Source: Solobacterium sp. | GTDB taxonomy: Bacteria > Bacillota_I > Bacilli_A > Erysipelotrichales > Erysipelotrichaceae | Assembly: GCA_024680365.1 (NCBI GenBank) | Contig: JAILCN010000073.1 | Coordinates: 1-51,673, forward strand | Length of the DNA: 51,673 nt | Reading direction: 5' to 3' | Shown here: piece after piece, positions 5,501 through 22,326 of the stretch | Numbering within the stretch: position 1 is the first letter of the stretch | Layout of the letters: every line of letters starts with the position of its first letter | Translations under genes and position numbers: made by a program | The notes under the pieces: model-generated | Seen by the model: only the letters and a program-made list of their open reading frames with translations | Told to the model about the DNA's origin: nothing | The model's database searches: none

Positions 5501-5576
5501 GCCGACTTAGCTCAATTGGCAGAGCAATTGATTTGTAATCAATAGGTTGTAGGTTCGATTCCTATAGTCGGCACCA
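5501..5576 (+). tRNA. tRNA-Thr (TGT)
   Basis: Acceptor GCCGACT/AGTCGGC; anticodon loop TTTGTAA gives TGT. CCA is encoded. It lies 7 nt after tRNA-Val. A second Thr isoacceptor (GGT) is at 38.3 kb. Confidence 0.97.
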
Positions 5577-5583
5577 TTTATTT

Positions 5584-5668
5584 GGAGACGTAGCGAAGTG
5601 GCTAAACGCGGCAGACTGTAAATCTGCTCCCTCCGGGTTCGGTGGTTCGAAACCACCCGTCTCCACCA
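5584..5668 (+). tRNA. tRNA-Tyr (GTA)
   Basis: An 85-nt class II tRNA with long variable arm (CTCCCTCCGGGTTCGG region), acceptor GGAGACG/CGTCTCC, anticodon GTA in GCAGACTGTAAATCTGC, CCA encoded. Confidence 0.97.
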
Positions 5669-17165: not shown

Positions 17166-17225
17166 AATCTTAAAAAAGCCGCATAAATAAAGCACTTTCA
17201 GCATTTCACACAATTTCACAAATTC

Positions 17226-17284
17226 ACTCCCGAAGGTGCGGAAAACCCGCATAAACAGGGAGTTTTTTTGATGCCTGTTTTTTT
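17226..17284 (+). terminator. Compound terminator after the larC operon
   Basis: ACTCCC (17226-17231) pairs with GGGAGT (17258-17263) around an inner TGCGG/CCGCA hairpin and is followed by a seven-T run. A second, partly overlapping hairpin AAACAGG (17253-17259) / CCTGTTT (17274-17280) has its own T run. The two cannot form together because they share 17258-17259. Confidence 0.75.
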
Positions 17285-17313: not shown

Positions 17314-17342
17314 TTTACAATTTCTTAATAATTTGTTAAAAC
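17314..17342 (+). promoter_or_regulatory. Promoter of the first NlpC/P60 gene
   Basis: TTTACA (17314-17319), 17 nt, TAAAAC (17337-17342). The second NlpC/P60 gene has the same -35, the same spacer length and the same 16-nt distance from -10 to the leader hairpin. Confidence 0.55.
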
Positions 17343-17358
17343 TTGTGAGTAAAAAAAA

Positions 17359-17395
17359 TTGGTTCATGGAGGCCTATACCGGTCATACGGATCAA
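17359..17395 (+). promoter_or_regulatory. Shared leader hairpin, copy 1
   Basis: TTGGTTC (17359-17365) pairs with GGATCAA (17389-17395) and GGCC (17371-17374) pairs with GGTC (17381-17384), giving two stems separated by an internal loop and closed by TATACC. It begins about 10 nt after the likely transcription start and ends 7 nt before the AAGGAGG site. Copy 2 is at 21291-21327. Confidence 0.6.
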
Positions 17396-17415
17396 TGTGA
17401 AAAAGGAGGGAGCGG

Positions 17416-18501
17416 ATGAATAAGACTTGTAAGCGTTTCCCGCTGGCAATGCTTGTCATGACAGTCGGACTGATCACATTTTCCACGACACCGTTAAAAG
17501 CGGAGAATGAAACAACTACAGAAACAGAGACAGAAAAAGCTGCTGAGACAACAGAGAAAGCTGCCGAAACAGTAACCGAAAAGACAGCTGAAGCAGCTGA
17601 GAAGACAGTTGAAACTGCTGAGGTTTACAGATTATACAGCGTGTATTCCGGAGAACACTTCTATACTGCAAAGAAAGCGGAAAAAGAAGCTCTGGTCAAA
17701 GCAGGCTGGGTATATGAAGGAGCAGGATGGATCGCTCCCGTTAAAAGCAATACCCCGGTATACAGACTGTATAACAGCGAAGCAGGGGATCATCACTATA
17801 CGATCAAGGCAAAAGAAAGAGCAGCTCTGGTCGAATACGGATGGGTCGATGAAGGCGTTGCATTCTATTCTGATGATGAGAAGACAATGGCTGTCTACCG
17901 TCAGTTCAATCCGTATACGGAAGCAGCCGGAGCTCACAATTATACGATCAGTGAAAAAGAAAAAGAATTCCTGATCAGCGCCAGCTGGGTCGATGAAGAC
18001 ATCTGCTGGTACGGCATCAGCGAAGGCTGGACCGAAGAAGCGGCGGTCAAGCAGATCGCAGCCATCCAGAAACAGATGGAAGCCGAAATCGCAGCCGAAC
18101 AGGCACGTGTCGCGGCTGAAAAGGCGAAGGGCGTCAAGGGAAGCGACATTGTAGCAGCAGCCCGCAAATGGATCCACAAGACAAGATACAGAAGCGGCGG
18201 AAACAACCCGTCTTCCGGTGTTGACTGCTCCGGATTCACGCAGTATATCTTCAGACAGTTCGGCATCAAGATCAACCGGACTGCGAAGAGCCAGGCAGCC
18301 AACGGCTACAAGGTCAAGAACCCGCAGCCGGGCGATCTCGCTCTGTGGACACACCACGCAGCGATCTATGCCGGCAACAACAAGATCGTTGACTCCACCA
18401 GCAGCCATCACGGTGTTGACGAAAGAGTCTTCGCGACATGGCGCGGCGCCGGAACGTTCATGGGATTCTATCACATCCCGGGCGTCAGCAACGGCAACTG
18501 A
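17416..18501 (+). CDS. Secreted NlpC/P60 hydrolase with GEHFYT-type repeats, copy 1
   Basis: The 361-residue precursor has a signal peptide (residues 1-29, cut after KA), a Thr/Glu/Ala-rich linker (30-69), three tandem repeats of the DUF5648 kind (YRLYSVYSGEHFYT, YRLYNSEAGDHHYT and a longer third; about 70-200), a helical linker (205-240) and a C-terminal NlpC/P60 domain with C271 in DCSGF and H314 in HAAIYAG. Such enzymes cut peptide cross-bridges of peptidoglycan outside the cell; the repeats probably bind wall or matrix. AAGGAGG lies 5 nt before the ATG. It is paralogous to the gene at 21349 and shares its leader. Confidence 0.9.
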   Translation: MNKTCKRFPLAMLVMTVGLITFSTTPLKAENETTTETETEKAAETTEKAAETVTEKTAEAAEKTVETAEVYRLYSVYSGEHFYTAKKAEKEALVKAGWVYEGAGWIAPVKSNTPVYRLYNSEAGDHHYTIKAKERAALVEYGWVDEGVAFYSDDEKTMAVYRQFNPYTEAAGAHNYTISEKEKEFLISASWVDEDICWYGISEGWTEEAAVKQIAAIQKQMEAEIAAEQARVAAEKAKGVKGSDIVAAARKWIHKTRYRSGGNNPSSGVDCSGFTQYIFRQFGIKINRTAKSQAANGYKVKNPQPGDLALWTHHAAIYAGNNKIVDSTSSHHGVDERVFATWRGAGTFMGFYHIPGVSNGN

Positions 18502-18513
18502 GACTGATTTGAG

Positions 18514-18540
18514 AGAGACCTCTTTGAGAGGTCTTTTTTC
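18514..18540 (+). terminator. Terminator after NlpC/P60 copy 1
   Basis: AGACCTC-TTTGA-GAGGTCT (18516-18534) followed by TTTTT. Confidence 0.88.
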
Positions 18541-18606
18541 TGTGTTACCATGAGTTTATCGATCTATTTCATTTATTCTTTTTTCCTATGAAACGGGGGA
18601 CAGACC

Positions 18607-19473
18607 ATGATCAGAGTAATTCTGCTGGACATCGACGGCACGCTGACCAACGATAAAAAGATCATTACACCCAAAACAAAAAAGGCTTTGCTGAAAGCGC
18701 AGGCGAAGGGAGTCAGGCTTGCCATCGCCAGCGGCCGTGCGGATCAGGGACTGTATCAGTGGGCGGACGTACTGGAGATGCGGGAACACCACGGTATCTT
18801 CGTCTGCTACAACGGCGCAAAGGTCATGGACTGCCAGACCGGCGAAGTGTATTTCCATCAGTCGATGAGTGTGGAAGAAGGCCGGGAAGTACTGGAACAT
18901 ATGAAGAAGTTCAAAGTATCCCCGGTGATCATCAAAGGGGAATACATGTATACCAACGACGTCTATTCCGGCATGATCCACCGTTCAGCCGGCGGTGAGA
19001 TCTTCAATGTGCTGCAGTATGAGTCGCGCTCCAACAGCTACATGCTGTGTGAAAAGAAGGATCTGGCAGCTTTCGCGGATTATCCGATCGAAAAGATCCT
19101 GACGGCAGGGGAGCCGGAGTATCTGCAGGAGCACTGGCAGGAAATGGCAGAGCCGTTCCGGGGCCGTCTTTCCTGCATGTTTACTGCACCGTTCTACTTT
19201 GAATTCACAGCGCAGGGCGTTGACAAGGCAAAGGCGATCGACGCTGCGTTCAGCCGCCTCGGCTTCCGGCAGGAAGAGATGATCGCCTTCGGAGACGCGC
19301 AGAATGACCTGTCCATGCTGAAATACGCAGGCATCGGCGTCGCCATGGGCAATGCTTCGGAAGAAGTGAAGGCTGCCGCAGATGAAGTTACATTATCCAA
19401 CAATGAAGACGGCATCGCTGTCTCACTATACAGGCATATGCCGGAACTGGCAGAGGAGGAAGCCGCATGTTAG
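18607..19473 (+). CDS. Cof-type HAD-IIB phosphatase
   Basis: The 288-residue protein has motif I LLDIDGTLT (D8, D10), motif II ASGR, and the C-terminal GDAQNDLSMLKYAG and MGNASEEVK segments of Cof-type phosphatases, which remove phosphate from sugar phosphates, pyridoxal phosphate or flavin precursors. GGGGGA precedes the ATG. It overlaps the next gene, a PHP phosphoesterase, by 7 bp, so two phosphatases are made together. The substrate is not evident. Confidence 0.88.
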   Translation: MIRVILLDIDGTLTNDKKIITPKTKKALLKAQAKGVRLAIASGRADQGLYQWADVLEMREHHGIFVCYNGAKVMDCQTGEVYFHQSMSVEEGREVLEHMKKFKVSPVIIKGEYMYTNDVYSGMIHRSAGGEIFNVLQYESRSNSYMLCEKKDLAAFADYPIEKILTAGEPEYLQEHWQEMAEPFRGRLSCMFTAPFYFEFTAQGVDKAKAIDAAFSRLGFRQEEMIAFGDAQNDLSMLKYAGIGVAMGNASEEVKAAADEVTLSNNEDGIAVSLYRHMPELAEEEAAC

Positions 19474-20333
19474 CAGATTATCATATTCATACCGAATTCA
19501 GCGATGATTCAAGAGAACCGATGCAGAATCAGATCGAACGGGCAATTGCGCTCGGCCTCGATGAGATCTGTTTTACGGATCATATTGACTATGGCATCAA
19601 GAAGGACTGGGAGGAAGGGAACATCGTGTTCCGCGGCGGCGACGGCATGAGCAGCGATCCGTCCCAGATGGATCCCTGCGCGAATGTCAACTATCCCGAA
19701 TACTTCGGCAAGCTGCTGCGAATGAAAGAGATCTATAAAGGAAAGATCACGATCCGGCAGGGACTTGAATTCGGCATTCAGACGATCACCGTCGATCAGT
19801 ATGAAAAACTGTGGGACAGATATAAAGATCAGCTGGACTTCATACTGCTCTCCATGCATCAGGTCAACAATCTTGAATTCTGGACGCAGGATTTCCAGAG
19901 AGGAAAGACGCAGAAAGAATACAATGAGGAATACTACCGCGAGATCTATGAAGTGCAGAAAGTCTTCAAGCATTACAGCGTCCTTGCCCATCTTGATCTG
20001 CTGGTCAGATATGACCTGCAGGGCATCTACCCGTTTGAAAATGTCAGGGATATGATCGCGGAGATCCTGAAGCTGGCCATCGCTGACGGCAAAGGGATTG
20101 AAGTCAATACATCCAGCTGGCACTACGGCCTCTCAGACACACAGCCCAGCCGCGCGATCCTGAAGCTGTACAAGGATCTCGGCGGAAAGATCGTCACGAT
20201 CGGCTCCGACGCCCACAATACGAAATTCCTGGCGGATCATCTGCAGGATGCGATGAAGATCCTCAAAGAAGAGATCGGCATCCAGGAGATCTGTACATTT
20301 GATCACATGGTTCCTTCTTTCCATGCACTGTAA
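19467..20333 (+). CDS. PHP-domain phosphoesterase, histidinol-phosphatase (HisJ) family
   Basis: The 288-residue protein begins DYHIHTEFSDDS (H6, H8 metal ligands) and contains CFTDHIDYG, FGIQT, SMHQVN, LAHLDL and GSDAHN, the metal-binding set of PHP phosphatases of the HisJ/HisK type. These hydrolyse histidinol phosphate in histidine synthesis, but no his genes are nearby, so another phosphoester is possible. It overlaps the HAD gene by 7 bp. Confidence 0.85.
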   Translation: MLADYHIHTEFSDDSREPMQNQIERAIALGLDEICFTDHIDYGIKKDWEEGNIVFRGGDGMSSDPSQMDPCANVNYPEYFGKLLRMKEIYKGKITIRQGLEFGIQTITVDQYEKLWDRYKDQLDFILLSMHQVNNLEFWTQDFQRGKTQKEYNEEYYREIYEVQKVFKHYSVLAHLDLLVRYDLQGIYPFENVRDMIAEILKLAIADGKGIEVNTSSWHYGLSDTQPSRAILKLYKDLGGKIVTIGSDAHNTKFLADHLQDAMKILKEEIGIQEICTFDHMVPSFHAL

Positions 20334-20335
20334 AC

Positions 20336-20368
20336 GAAAAAACACCGGCAATGGCACCGGTGTTTTTC
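20336..20368 (+). terminator. Terminator after the PHP gene
   Basis: AACACCGG (20341-20348) and CCGGTGTT (20357-20364) form the stem, flanked by A and T runs. Confidence 0.88.
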
Positions 20369-20404
20369 CATGTTCATAACTTTTTTGGGGAAGAAATCAT
20401 GAAC

Positions 20405-20420
20405 GTCAGATGTATCTGAC
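20405..20420. promoter_or_regulatory. Palindrome upstream of the GNAT gene
   Basis: GTCAGAT-GT-ATCTGAC is a perfect 7-2-7 inverted repeat in the 224-nt gap before the GNAT gene, just upstream of a TATACT hexamer (20430-20435). It could be an operator; the gap otherwise shows only a weak TAAAAT -10 candidate near 20532. Confidence 0.35.
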
Positions 20421-20557
20421 ATGCATTACTATACTGGAAAACGAATCGAAAAAAGGAGTAATTTACTGTTAATTTGATGCTTTTCGGAAATTGTAAAAAA
20501 GAATCATGAATGAAAGAGGAACGTTGATGATAAAATGAGCCTGCATTGGAGAAAACT

Positions 20558-21028
20558 ATGGCAAGACTGATCATACCGGAACTTGAAGAACTGTCATTTC
20601 GCAGGAAAATGTATGAAAATGAACGGACCATGTCTTTCCTGCACAAAACGGTGCCGTTTCCGAAAGAGGCGTGGGAACCGTTTTATCAGGAAGTGATCCA
20701 GGCGGATCCGGCTGAGTACTGTTACCGGCTGGTTTACTGCGGAGGCTGTGAAGACTTTGTCGGAGAAGCAATGTACAGAAGAAAACCTGGCACGGATGCA
20801 GCGGAATGCTGGATCCTGATCGAAGCGTCAAGAAGAAACAGCGGCTACGGGAGAAGCGGTCTGGAACTGCTGGAACAGACGGCAGCCGGCTATGGGATAA
20901 GGACATTCTATGCCCGTATTCCAGCGGATGATCCGGCATGCGGCTTCTTTGAACACCTCGGTTTCCATAAGCTGCGGGACGAAGGATCTGTGGTCGTGAT
21001 GAAAAAAGAATTCGCAGAGATTCTGTAA
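20558..21028 (+). CDS. GNAT-family N-acetyltransferase
   Basis: The 156-residue protein has GNAT features: an acceptor-side helix, a strand with GEAMYRRK, the motif A-like stretch NSGYGRSGLELLEQTA and the C-terminal CGFFEHLGFHKL segment typical of acetyl-CoA-dependent acetyltransferases. The substrate is unknown. The ORF track uses a TTG at 20546; the ATG at 20558 follows GGAG with 6-nt spacing and is preferred. It is followed by a terminator, so it is probably transcribed alone. Confidence 0.75.
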   Translation: MARLIIPELEELSFRRKMYENERTMSFLHKTVPFPKEAWEPFYQEVIQADPAEYCYRLVYCGGCEDFVGEAMYRRKPGTDAAECWILIEASRRNSGYGRSGLELLEQTAAGYGIRTFYARIPADDPACGFFEHLGFHKLRDEGSVVVMKKEFAEIL

Positions 21029-21055
21029 TCATTCCTTAAAAATTGTGAAAAATTC

Positions 21056-21086
21056 GCGCTTTTTCAGCTGAGAAAGCGCTTTTTTC
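21056..21086 (+). terminator. Terminator after the GNAT gene
   Basis: GCGCTTT (21056-21062) pairs with AAAGCGC (21073-21079), then TTTTTT. A second AAAGCGC at 21114-21120 could compete for the same arm. Confidence 0.75.
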
Positions 21087-21102
21087 ATCAGAGAATGGGA
21101 GT

Positions 21103-21205
21103 TTTCATCGATGAAAGCGCTGCAAAATCACATCACTTCACATATTTCATGCATGAATTCACACAGATTTTCCAATGTAACCGGTCACATTTTCAAATGT
21201 AACCG
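21103..21205. promoter_or_regulatory. Array of palindromes upstream of NlpC/P60 copy 2
   Basis: This part of the 320-nt gap holds three dyads: TTTCATCGATGAAA (21103-21116, perfect), TTCATGCATGAA (21146-21157, perfect) and AATGTAACCGGTCACATT (21174-21191, one mismatched pair), plus an extra half-site AATGTAACCG (21196-21205). Dyad centres are 42 and 31 bp apart, close to four and three helical turns. Confidence 0.5.
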
Positions 21206-21245
21206 TTTAACTGACCAACAGTCGGCTGTGAAAAAATAAACAAAT

Positions 21246-21274
21246 TTTACATGCATTACAAAAGAGGGTATAAA
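21246..21274 (+). promoter_or_regulatory. Promoter of the second NlpC/P60 gene
   Basis: TTTACA (21246-21251), 17 nt, TATAAA (21269-21274). Same -35 and spacing as the promoter at 17314. Confidence 0.65.
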
Positions 21275-21290
21275 AATCGGGTCTTTCAAA

Positions 21291-21327
21291 TTGGTTCATG
21301 CAGGCCCATACCGGTCAGTAGGATCAA
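21291..21327 (+). promoter_or_regulatory. Shared leader hairpin, copy 2
   Basis: TTGGTTC (21291-21297) pairs with GGATCAA (21321-21327), and GGCC (21303-21306) with GGTC (21313-21316), loop CATACC. Both stems are identical to copy 1; differences fall in the internal loop and one loop base. Confidence 0.6.
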
Positions 21328-21348
21328 TGTGAAAAAGAAGGAGGATAT

Positions 21349-22326
21349 ATGAGTAAGAATCGAAAGCGGATCCCGCTGACATTCCTGATCATGATCATCG
21401 GACTGATCACATTCAACCCAACACCTGTAAAAGCGGAAAATGAAACGACAAGTGTTTACCGGCTGTATAACGTTTCTTCAGGAGAACACTTCTATACAGT
21501 CAATGAGAATGAAAAAAGCGGACTCGAAAAAAGCGGCTGGATCTGCGAAGGCGTCGGATGGATGGCGCCGGTCGTCAGCAGTCAGCCAGTGTACAGACTC
21601 TACAACCCCAAAGCAGGGGATCATCACTATACAGTAAATGAAACAGAAAAAGAATATCTGGTGAAAGCCGGATGGAAAGATGAAGGCATCGCGTTCTATT
21701 CCGATGAAGACAAAACATACGCGGTCTATCGTCAGTTTAATTCAAATCAGAAAAAAGCAGGCGCGCACAACTACACAGTTTCTGAAAAAGAAAGAGACGT
21801 GCTTGTCAAAGCTGGCTGGAAAAATGAGGGAGAAGGATGGTATGCTTCCGCAGAAGGCTATTCCGATCCTTCCGCAATTGAAAAGATCAACGCGAAAAGA
21901 GCGAAACTGGAAGCGTCGAAGGCATCCGCAAAGGCTGAAGCAGCCAAGTCTTCCGGCGTGACCGGCACAGCGATCGTTTCGGCAGCCCGCAAATGGGTCG
22001 GTGTCGGCAAATATGTATCCGGCGGCACAAATCCGAAGACAGGAACAGACTGTTCCGGCTTCACCCAGTACATCTTCAGACAGTTCGGCATCTCACTGAA
22101 CAGAACTGCCCGTTCCCAGGCATCCAATGGCTACAAGGTCAGCAGTCCGAAACCAGGCGATCTTGCCATCTGGACAGGCCACGTTGCGATCTATGCCGGA
22201 AACGGCGTGATCATTGACGCGGTCAATGCAAAACAGGATATCAGAGAACGCGCGTTCGGCAAATCCAAAGGCGCGGGAAGATTCCTCGGATACTATCATA
22301 TTAAGGGCGTTTCCAACGGAAACTGA
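21349..22326 (+). CDS. Secreted NlpC/P60 hydrolase with GEHFYT-type repeats, copy 2
   Basis: The 325-residue paralogue of the 17416 gene has a signal peptide (1-29), three DUF5648-like repeats (about 36-165), a short helical linker and an NlpC/P60 domain with C235 in DCSGF and H278 in HVAIYAG; both proteins end GVSNGN. It lacks the Thr/Glu-rich linker of copy 1, so the repeats start right after the signal peptide. It should cleave peptidoglycan peptides outside the cell. AAGGAGG stands before the ATG. The strong conservation of leader and coding region suggests a fairly recent duplication across the HAD-PHP-GNAT block. Confidence 0.9.
   Translation: MSKNRKRIPLTFLIMIIGLITFNPTPVKAENETTSVYRLYNVSSGEHFYTVNENEKSGLEKSGWICEGVGWMAPVVSSQPVYRLYNPKAGDHHYTVNETEKEYLVKAGWKDEGIAFYSDEDKTYAVYRQFNSNQKKAGAHNYTVSEKERDVLVKAGWKNEGEGWYASAEGYSDPSAIEKINAKRAKLEASKASAKAEAAKSSGVTGTAIVSAARKWVGVGKYVSGGTNPKTGTDCSGFTQYIFRQFGISLNRTARSQASNGYKVSSPKPGDLAIWTGHVAIYAGNGVIIDAVNAKQDIRERAFGKSKGAGRFLGYYHIKGVSNGN

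Follow-up and report, generated by a model that had tools for sequence, protein, structure and literature searches.

Two near-tandem genes in a 51,673-nucleotide stretch of DNA from Solobacterium sp. (the window) are each preceded by the same short leader, and this raises the question of whether the leader is a cis-acting RNA, a site in the DNA or the trace of a duplication. The products of gene 1 (17416..18501, + strand, 361 aa) and gene 2 (21349..22326, + strand, 325 aa) both have a signal-peptide-like N-terminus, DUF5648 and NlpC/P60 (Pfam). Their domains suggest that both products are secreted, cell-wall-cutting enzymes (peptidoglycan hydrolases), and the host is probably an uncultured rumen-type Erysipelotrichaceae. 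A HAD hydrolase, a PHP-domain protein and a GNAT acetyltransferase are encoded between gene 1 and gene 2 (Pfam).

Promoter, leader and upstream elements

The layout before each gene is TTTACA, 17 nt, an A-rich -10, 16 nt, the 37-nt leader, AAGGAGG and ATG, and the sequence agrees with the coordinates and promoter geometry given in the initial annotation. The predicted promoter of gene 1 (TTTACA, 17 nt, TAAAAC; 17314..17342, + strand) is based on sequence and alignment and has a weak -10, which is conserved at leader A of the related genome G057 described below. That of gene 2 (TTTACA, 17 nt, TATAAA; 21246..21274, + strand) has the same basis. The -10 boxes TAAAAC (17337) and TATAAA (21269) each stand 16 nt ahead of TTGG, and the distance from TTTACA (17314, 21246) to AATTGG is 43 nt at both window genes; across all copies the spacing from TTTACA to the leader is 42-43 nt. 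A consensus promoter scan picked up neither the gene 1 nor the gene 2 promoter because their -10s are weak.

The leader hairpin of gene 1 lies at 17359..17395 (+ strand), with arms at 17359-17365/17389-17395 and 17371-17374/17381-17384 and the loop TATACC at 17375-17380. The leader hairpin of gene 2 lies at 21291..21327 (+ strand), with arms at 21291-21297/21321-21327 and 21303-21306/21313-21316 and the loop CATACC at 21307-21312. Both assignments are based on the fold, conservation in four copies and sense-strand bias, and both leaders fold with the pairings TTGGTTC/GGATCAA and GGCC/GGTC that had been claimed for them. The hairpin begins about 10 nt after the 5' end, which is itself a prediction. 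At both window genes the stem-loop is followed by a strong Shine-Dalgarno sequence, AAGGAGG (17403..17409 and 21338..21344, + strand), which is predicted to be 83-93% unpaired in the isolated leader. A genome search found only the two window copies of the leader in the source genome.

Further upstream is a TTCAC-repeat array, made up of TTTCACACAAYTTCACA and then TTCAC, which was recognised by alignment and spacing. It lies at 17204..17227 (+ strand) for gene 1, as the only exact copy in the genome, and in a degenerate form at 21126..21150 (+ strand) for gene 2; G057 has it at L032:3518-3541 and 5539-5563. The distance from the array to TTTACA is 110, 109, 120 and 120 nt (first window copy, A, B and second window copy, respectively), and the two distances (109-110 and 120 nt) differ by about one helical turn. 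Elsewhere in the three leader-bearing genomes there were only two-mismatch or short matches to the array, at background level. The array is a candidate activator site, and because it is common to all four genes, the pair shares its whole control region and not the leader alone. The initial annotation held that the flanks outside promoter and leader had diverged; this has to be qualified, since the likeness reaches the signal-peptide codons (TCGGACTGATCACAT) on one side and the TTCAC array on the other. An inverted repeat, GGTCACATT-TTCA-AATGTAACC, is present upstream of the second gene only (21183-21204 in the window; L032 at about 5597-5618). The block around it is conserved in G057 and in a third genome, G108; nothing else in the three genomes matches the repeat strongly, and the repeat is a candidate DNA operator.

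Distribution of the leader

In the same-genus genome G057 (uncultured Erysipelotrichaceae bacterium RUG597, where RUG means rumen uncultured genomes), both genes have an orthologue preceded by the leader. Leader A (L032:3671-3709) belongs to the orthologue of gene 1 and leader B (L032:5704-5740) to the orthologue of gene 2. G108 (RUG10685) has one copy, identical to leader B, on a contig that is 99% identical to G057 around the second gene; it is therefore not an independent copy, and the distinct copies number four (two in the window, A and B). The left part of the G108 contig (L127:1-1803) has no match to G057 or to the window region and reflects either a rearrangement or chimeric assembly of the MAG. 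The HAD and PHP genes (18607-20333) are absent from the matching place in G057, where gene A is directly followed by the GNAT gene.

A covariance model built from the four distinct leaders was searched against 246 relatives and 273 family genomes (overlapping sets). Matches with E below 1e-16 were exactly the five known places, and all other matches in these sets were at 5e-4 or worse. The weak matches in relatives (G168, G184, G202, G004 and others) mostly covered only the AAATTGG...CAATGTGAAAAAG edges and lacked the central part, or lay inside unrelated open frames, and were taken as chance. Among 84,980 species, a near-exact 37-nt pattern gave zero matches, and a relaxed pattern gave RUG597, RUG10685 and nine matches in unrelated bacteria; these nine were rejected, as their model score was 17 bits or less compared with 72-79 for true copies. 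Neither viral contigs nor plasmids contained a leader match.

All five leader-bearing genes are in the DUF5648-NlpC/P60 subfamily (the gene in G108 is cut by the contig end). The leader is missing from the other homologues in the leader-bearing genomes, whose alignment covers only part of the protein. The known range of the leader is so far one gene pair in three related genomes (MAGs). The initial annotation had made its proposal depend on copies beyond recent paralogues; copies do occur in G057 and G108, but none lies outside this paralogue pair, which is old and not recent, and its orthologues. DUF5648 domains are strongly expanded in some of these genomes: a search with gene 2 (21349-22326) gave 14 scored matches (43 candidates) in the source genome G000 and 14 scored matches in G057 and G112, with none in most relatives at the same cut-off. 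Behind the signal peptide of gene 1, at about 17518-17619, is a 34-residue EKAAET-like repetitive linker, which is lacking in the orthologue and both paralogues.

Conservation of the leader

Mature-protein identity is 0.67 for the first gene with A, 0.68 for the second with B and 0.54-0.60 for the other comparisons. The proteins thus pair first-with-A and second-with-B, and the duplication therefore predates the split of the two genomes. At four-fold sites of the mature coding part, each comparison gives 40-48% identity, which is near saturation. Over the four copies, 30 of the 39 hairpin columns are invariant versus 8 of the 55 four-fold sites of the mature coding sequence (binomial P ~4e-17), so that the likeness is beyond chance and common descent. 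The first window leader has 5 differences from its own paralogue and 3 from leader B; this closer similarity to B speaks against homogenisation within the genome, and neither gene conversion nor concerted evolution was seen among the four leaders compared. Because the invariance exceeds that of near-saturated four-fold sites and concerted evolution was not seen, these comparisons indicate that the leader is under purifying selection and has been kept nearly letter for letter since before the genes separated. The signal-peptide codons are also strongly kept (5 of 7 four-fold sites invariant, with TCGGACTGATCACAT identical in all four copies), and the constraint may extend beyond the leader into them.

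Folding of the leader

Paired columns are better kept than unpaired ones, with 21 of 22 and 9 of 17 invariant, respectively (Fisher P=0.005, four copies). Most variable columns belong to the internal loop or to the first base of the loop, largely where the initial annotation had placed them, and the loop ATACC is fixed. The sole stem change, C to T in leader B, turns C-G into U-G and so leaves the pair intact; G-U occurs at three further pairs in every copy, and 10 of the 11 pairs never vary. The compensatory changes that might have been expected were not found: the stems are too nearly constant across the four distinct copies to show any two-sided change. Folding energies are -10.9 to -14.3 kcal/mol for the sense strand and just -3.2 to -5.6 kcal/mol for the antisense strand. 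In column shuffles over three spans, the consensus fold was equalled by 8, 11 and 19 of 1000. The folding energy of single sequences is ordinary (z = -0.5 and -1.7 for the first and second window copies, -0.3 and -1.6 for the G057 copies). When 100 nt of coding sequence is added, the outer stem accounts for 16% of the predicted ensemble in the first window copy, about 44% in A, 76-90% in the second window copy and 54-84% in B. A lower stem (UUUCA/UGAAA) is present in the second window copy and B and takes another form in A; it is not counted in the core because of this variable form and its absence from the first window copy. The better-kept paired columns, the pair-keeping change, the strand-biased folding and the shuffle test together favour a sense RNA hairpin over a DNA operator.

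Neither of the expression platforms expected of a riboswitch or attenuator was found: no terminator follows the hairpin, and the predicted fold of the isolated leader does not sequester the Shine-Dalgarno sequence. These predictions, which apply to the isolated leader and not to larger switches that take in coding sequence, argue against the usual attenuator and sequestration designs. The very small regulatory RNA that the initial annotation had offered as an option is unlikely as an independent RNA, since no terminator follows the hairpin. Pairing at long range between AATGTGA and TCACATT, the latter in the signal-peptide codons, was considered as a conserved switch and rejected, as it stands out in the first window copy only: synonymous randomisations were as good in 10 of 1000 cases there and in 225, 827 and 694 of 1000 in the other copies.

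Discussion

The best explanation of the leader, to which we give a probability of about one half, is a cis-acting RNA hairpin in the 5' UTR that is read sequence-specifically and controls mRNA stability or translation. The hairpin would lie within the short 5' UTR of both mRNAs, at a distance of about 10 nt from their predicted 5' ends, and would leave the Shine-Dalgarno sequence free. A free Shine-Dalgarno sequence and the lack of a terminator fit a 5'-end element that acts on mRNA decay or ribosome access, and its action would probably be post-transcriptional. A sequence-specific partner, either an RNA-binding protein or a small RNA, probably reads the hairpin and co-regulates both enzymes; such a partner is favoured because the letters of both stems and of the loop (ATACC) are fixed, and not only the pairing. 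Transcription of the leader, its folding in the cell, the existence of a partner and the direction of the effect are inferred. A tentative suggestion, which we consider possible rather than probable, is that an undescribed RNA-binding regulator with sequence specificity (or a small RNA) binds at the hairpin and jointly controls both hydrolases in one rumen Erysipelotrichaceae lineage. The initial proposal of a cis-acting RNA is thus strengthened by selection, sense-only folding, better-kept pairs and placement, but not by covariation, which is absent, or by folding energy, which is ordinary. Two outcomes that the initial annotation had named as refuting it, a lack of copies beyond recent paralogues and a lack of covariation, come close to what was observed.

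The leader might instead be a plain 5'-end stabiliser of the mRNA of the Bacillus subtilis aprE type, in which a stem-loop and a strong Shine-Dalgarno sequence hinder 5' nucleases and no specific partner is involved. The position near the predicted 5' end, the strong AAGGAGG, the secreted product and the aprE precedent itself (PMC11805744; PMC3997798) fit this. However, pairing alone would then suffice, and compensated stem variation would be expected at the observed divergence; instead 21 of the 22 paired letters and the loop are fixed, and the fold lacks exceptional stability. We therefore consider a plain stabiliser rather unlikely. A DNA operator just downstream of the promoter, for a repressor or an activator and possibly asymmetric, is also rather unlikely. 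It would account for the letter-for-letter conservation, including the fixed stem letters, and for the constant distance from TTTACA, and further candidate DNA sites do occur upstream. A dyad-symmetric operator would have Watson-Crick symmetry and be equal on both strands, but the leader has G-T mismatches at 3 of 11 facing positions in all copies (and at a fourth in B), and only the sense strand forms the hairpin.

The remaining explanations are much less probable. Recent duplication, which the initial annotation had named as another possible cause of the likeness, or gene conversion, affecting the gene in its 5' part, would agree with near-tandem paralogues whose likeness runs on into the signal-peptide codons. 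It is contradicted by the low identity of four-fold sites throughout, if these are a fair neutral yardstick, and by the first window leader being nearer to B than to its own paralogue; with paralogues older than the genome split, we reject it as very improbable. A short regulatory peptide encoded in the leader is hardly more credible. Three of the four copies contain a 13-codon frame that starts with TTG and ends in ATG-TGA, and a second frame, with an ATG start, overlaps the beginning of gene 1. The first frame is broken in A by a 2-nt insertion, has no preceding ribosome-binding site and carries substitutions that alter residues and not third positions, and the end of the ATG frame differs from copy to copy. 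A leader-peptide attenuator was likewise rejected, as no conserved frame with a ribosome-binding site was found.

Cell-wall hydrolases need tight dosing. A leader whose letters have outlasted near-saturated neutral change is likely to be a point of control, probably a post-transcriptional one, and it belongs here to a gut lineage that has received little study. The narrow range of one gene pair in three related genomes limits the general importance of the leader. What is new is a single small hairpin on this pair in three related MAGs, as 5'-UTR hairpins as such are already known.

The hairpin appears to be undescribed in the searchable literature and databases. The literature found on leaders of NlpC/P60 genes concerns the c-di-AMP (ydaO-yuaA) riboswitch, which precedes nlpC in Corynebacterium glutamicum (PMC9960051), and a structured-RNA search in 50 genomes that names Erysipelotrichaceae does not mention NlpC (PMC11109978). 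The hairpin shares with that riboswitch its place in the 5' leader before an NlpC/P60 gene, but it consists of only one 37-nt stem-loop with no terminator and is far smaller than the c-di-AMP aptamer. Rfam 15 gave no relevant match in the window and none at either leader with E up to 10; the riboswitch covariance model was unmatched, and identity with this riboswitch was rejected, as the initial annotation had also judged. In Clostridium perfringens, colA is induced via pairing of a small RNA with the mRNA, and the stem-loop of pilA2 has been proposed to stabilise (PMC7395162). These are also 5' leader structures of genes for secreted or surface proteins (PMC7395162), but they mature by processing of longer transcripts, whereas the predicted place of the present hairpin is at the 5' end of the primary transcript. 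Among proven analogues, the closest is the B. subtilis aprE leader, in which removal of the 5' stem-loop is reported to cut the stability of the mRNA from more than 25 min to about 5 min (PMC11805744; reviewed in PMC3997798). In both, a stem-loop near the 5' end, which is a predicted end in the present case, is followed by a strong Shine-Dalgarno sequence and a gene for a secreted enzyme (PMC11805744; PMC3997798). Unlike an aprE-type stabiliser, the hairpin described here has kept the letters of its stem and loop, beyond mere pairing.
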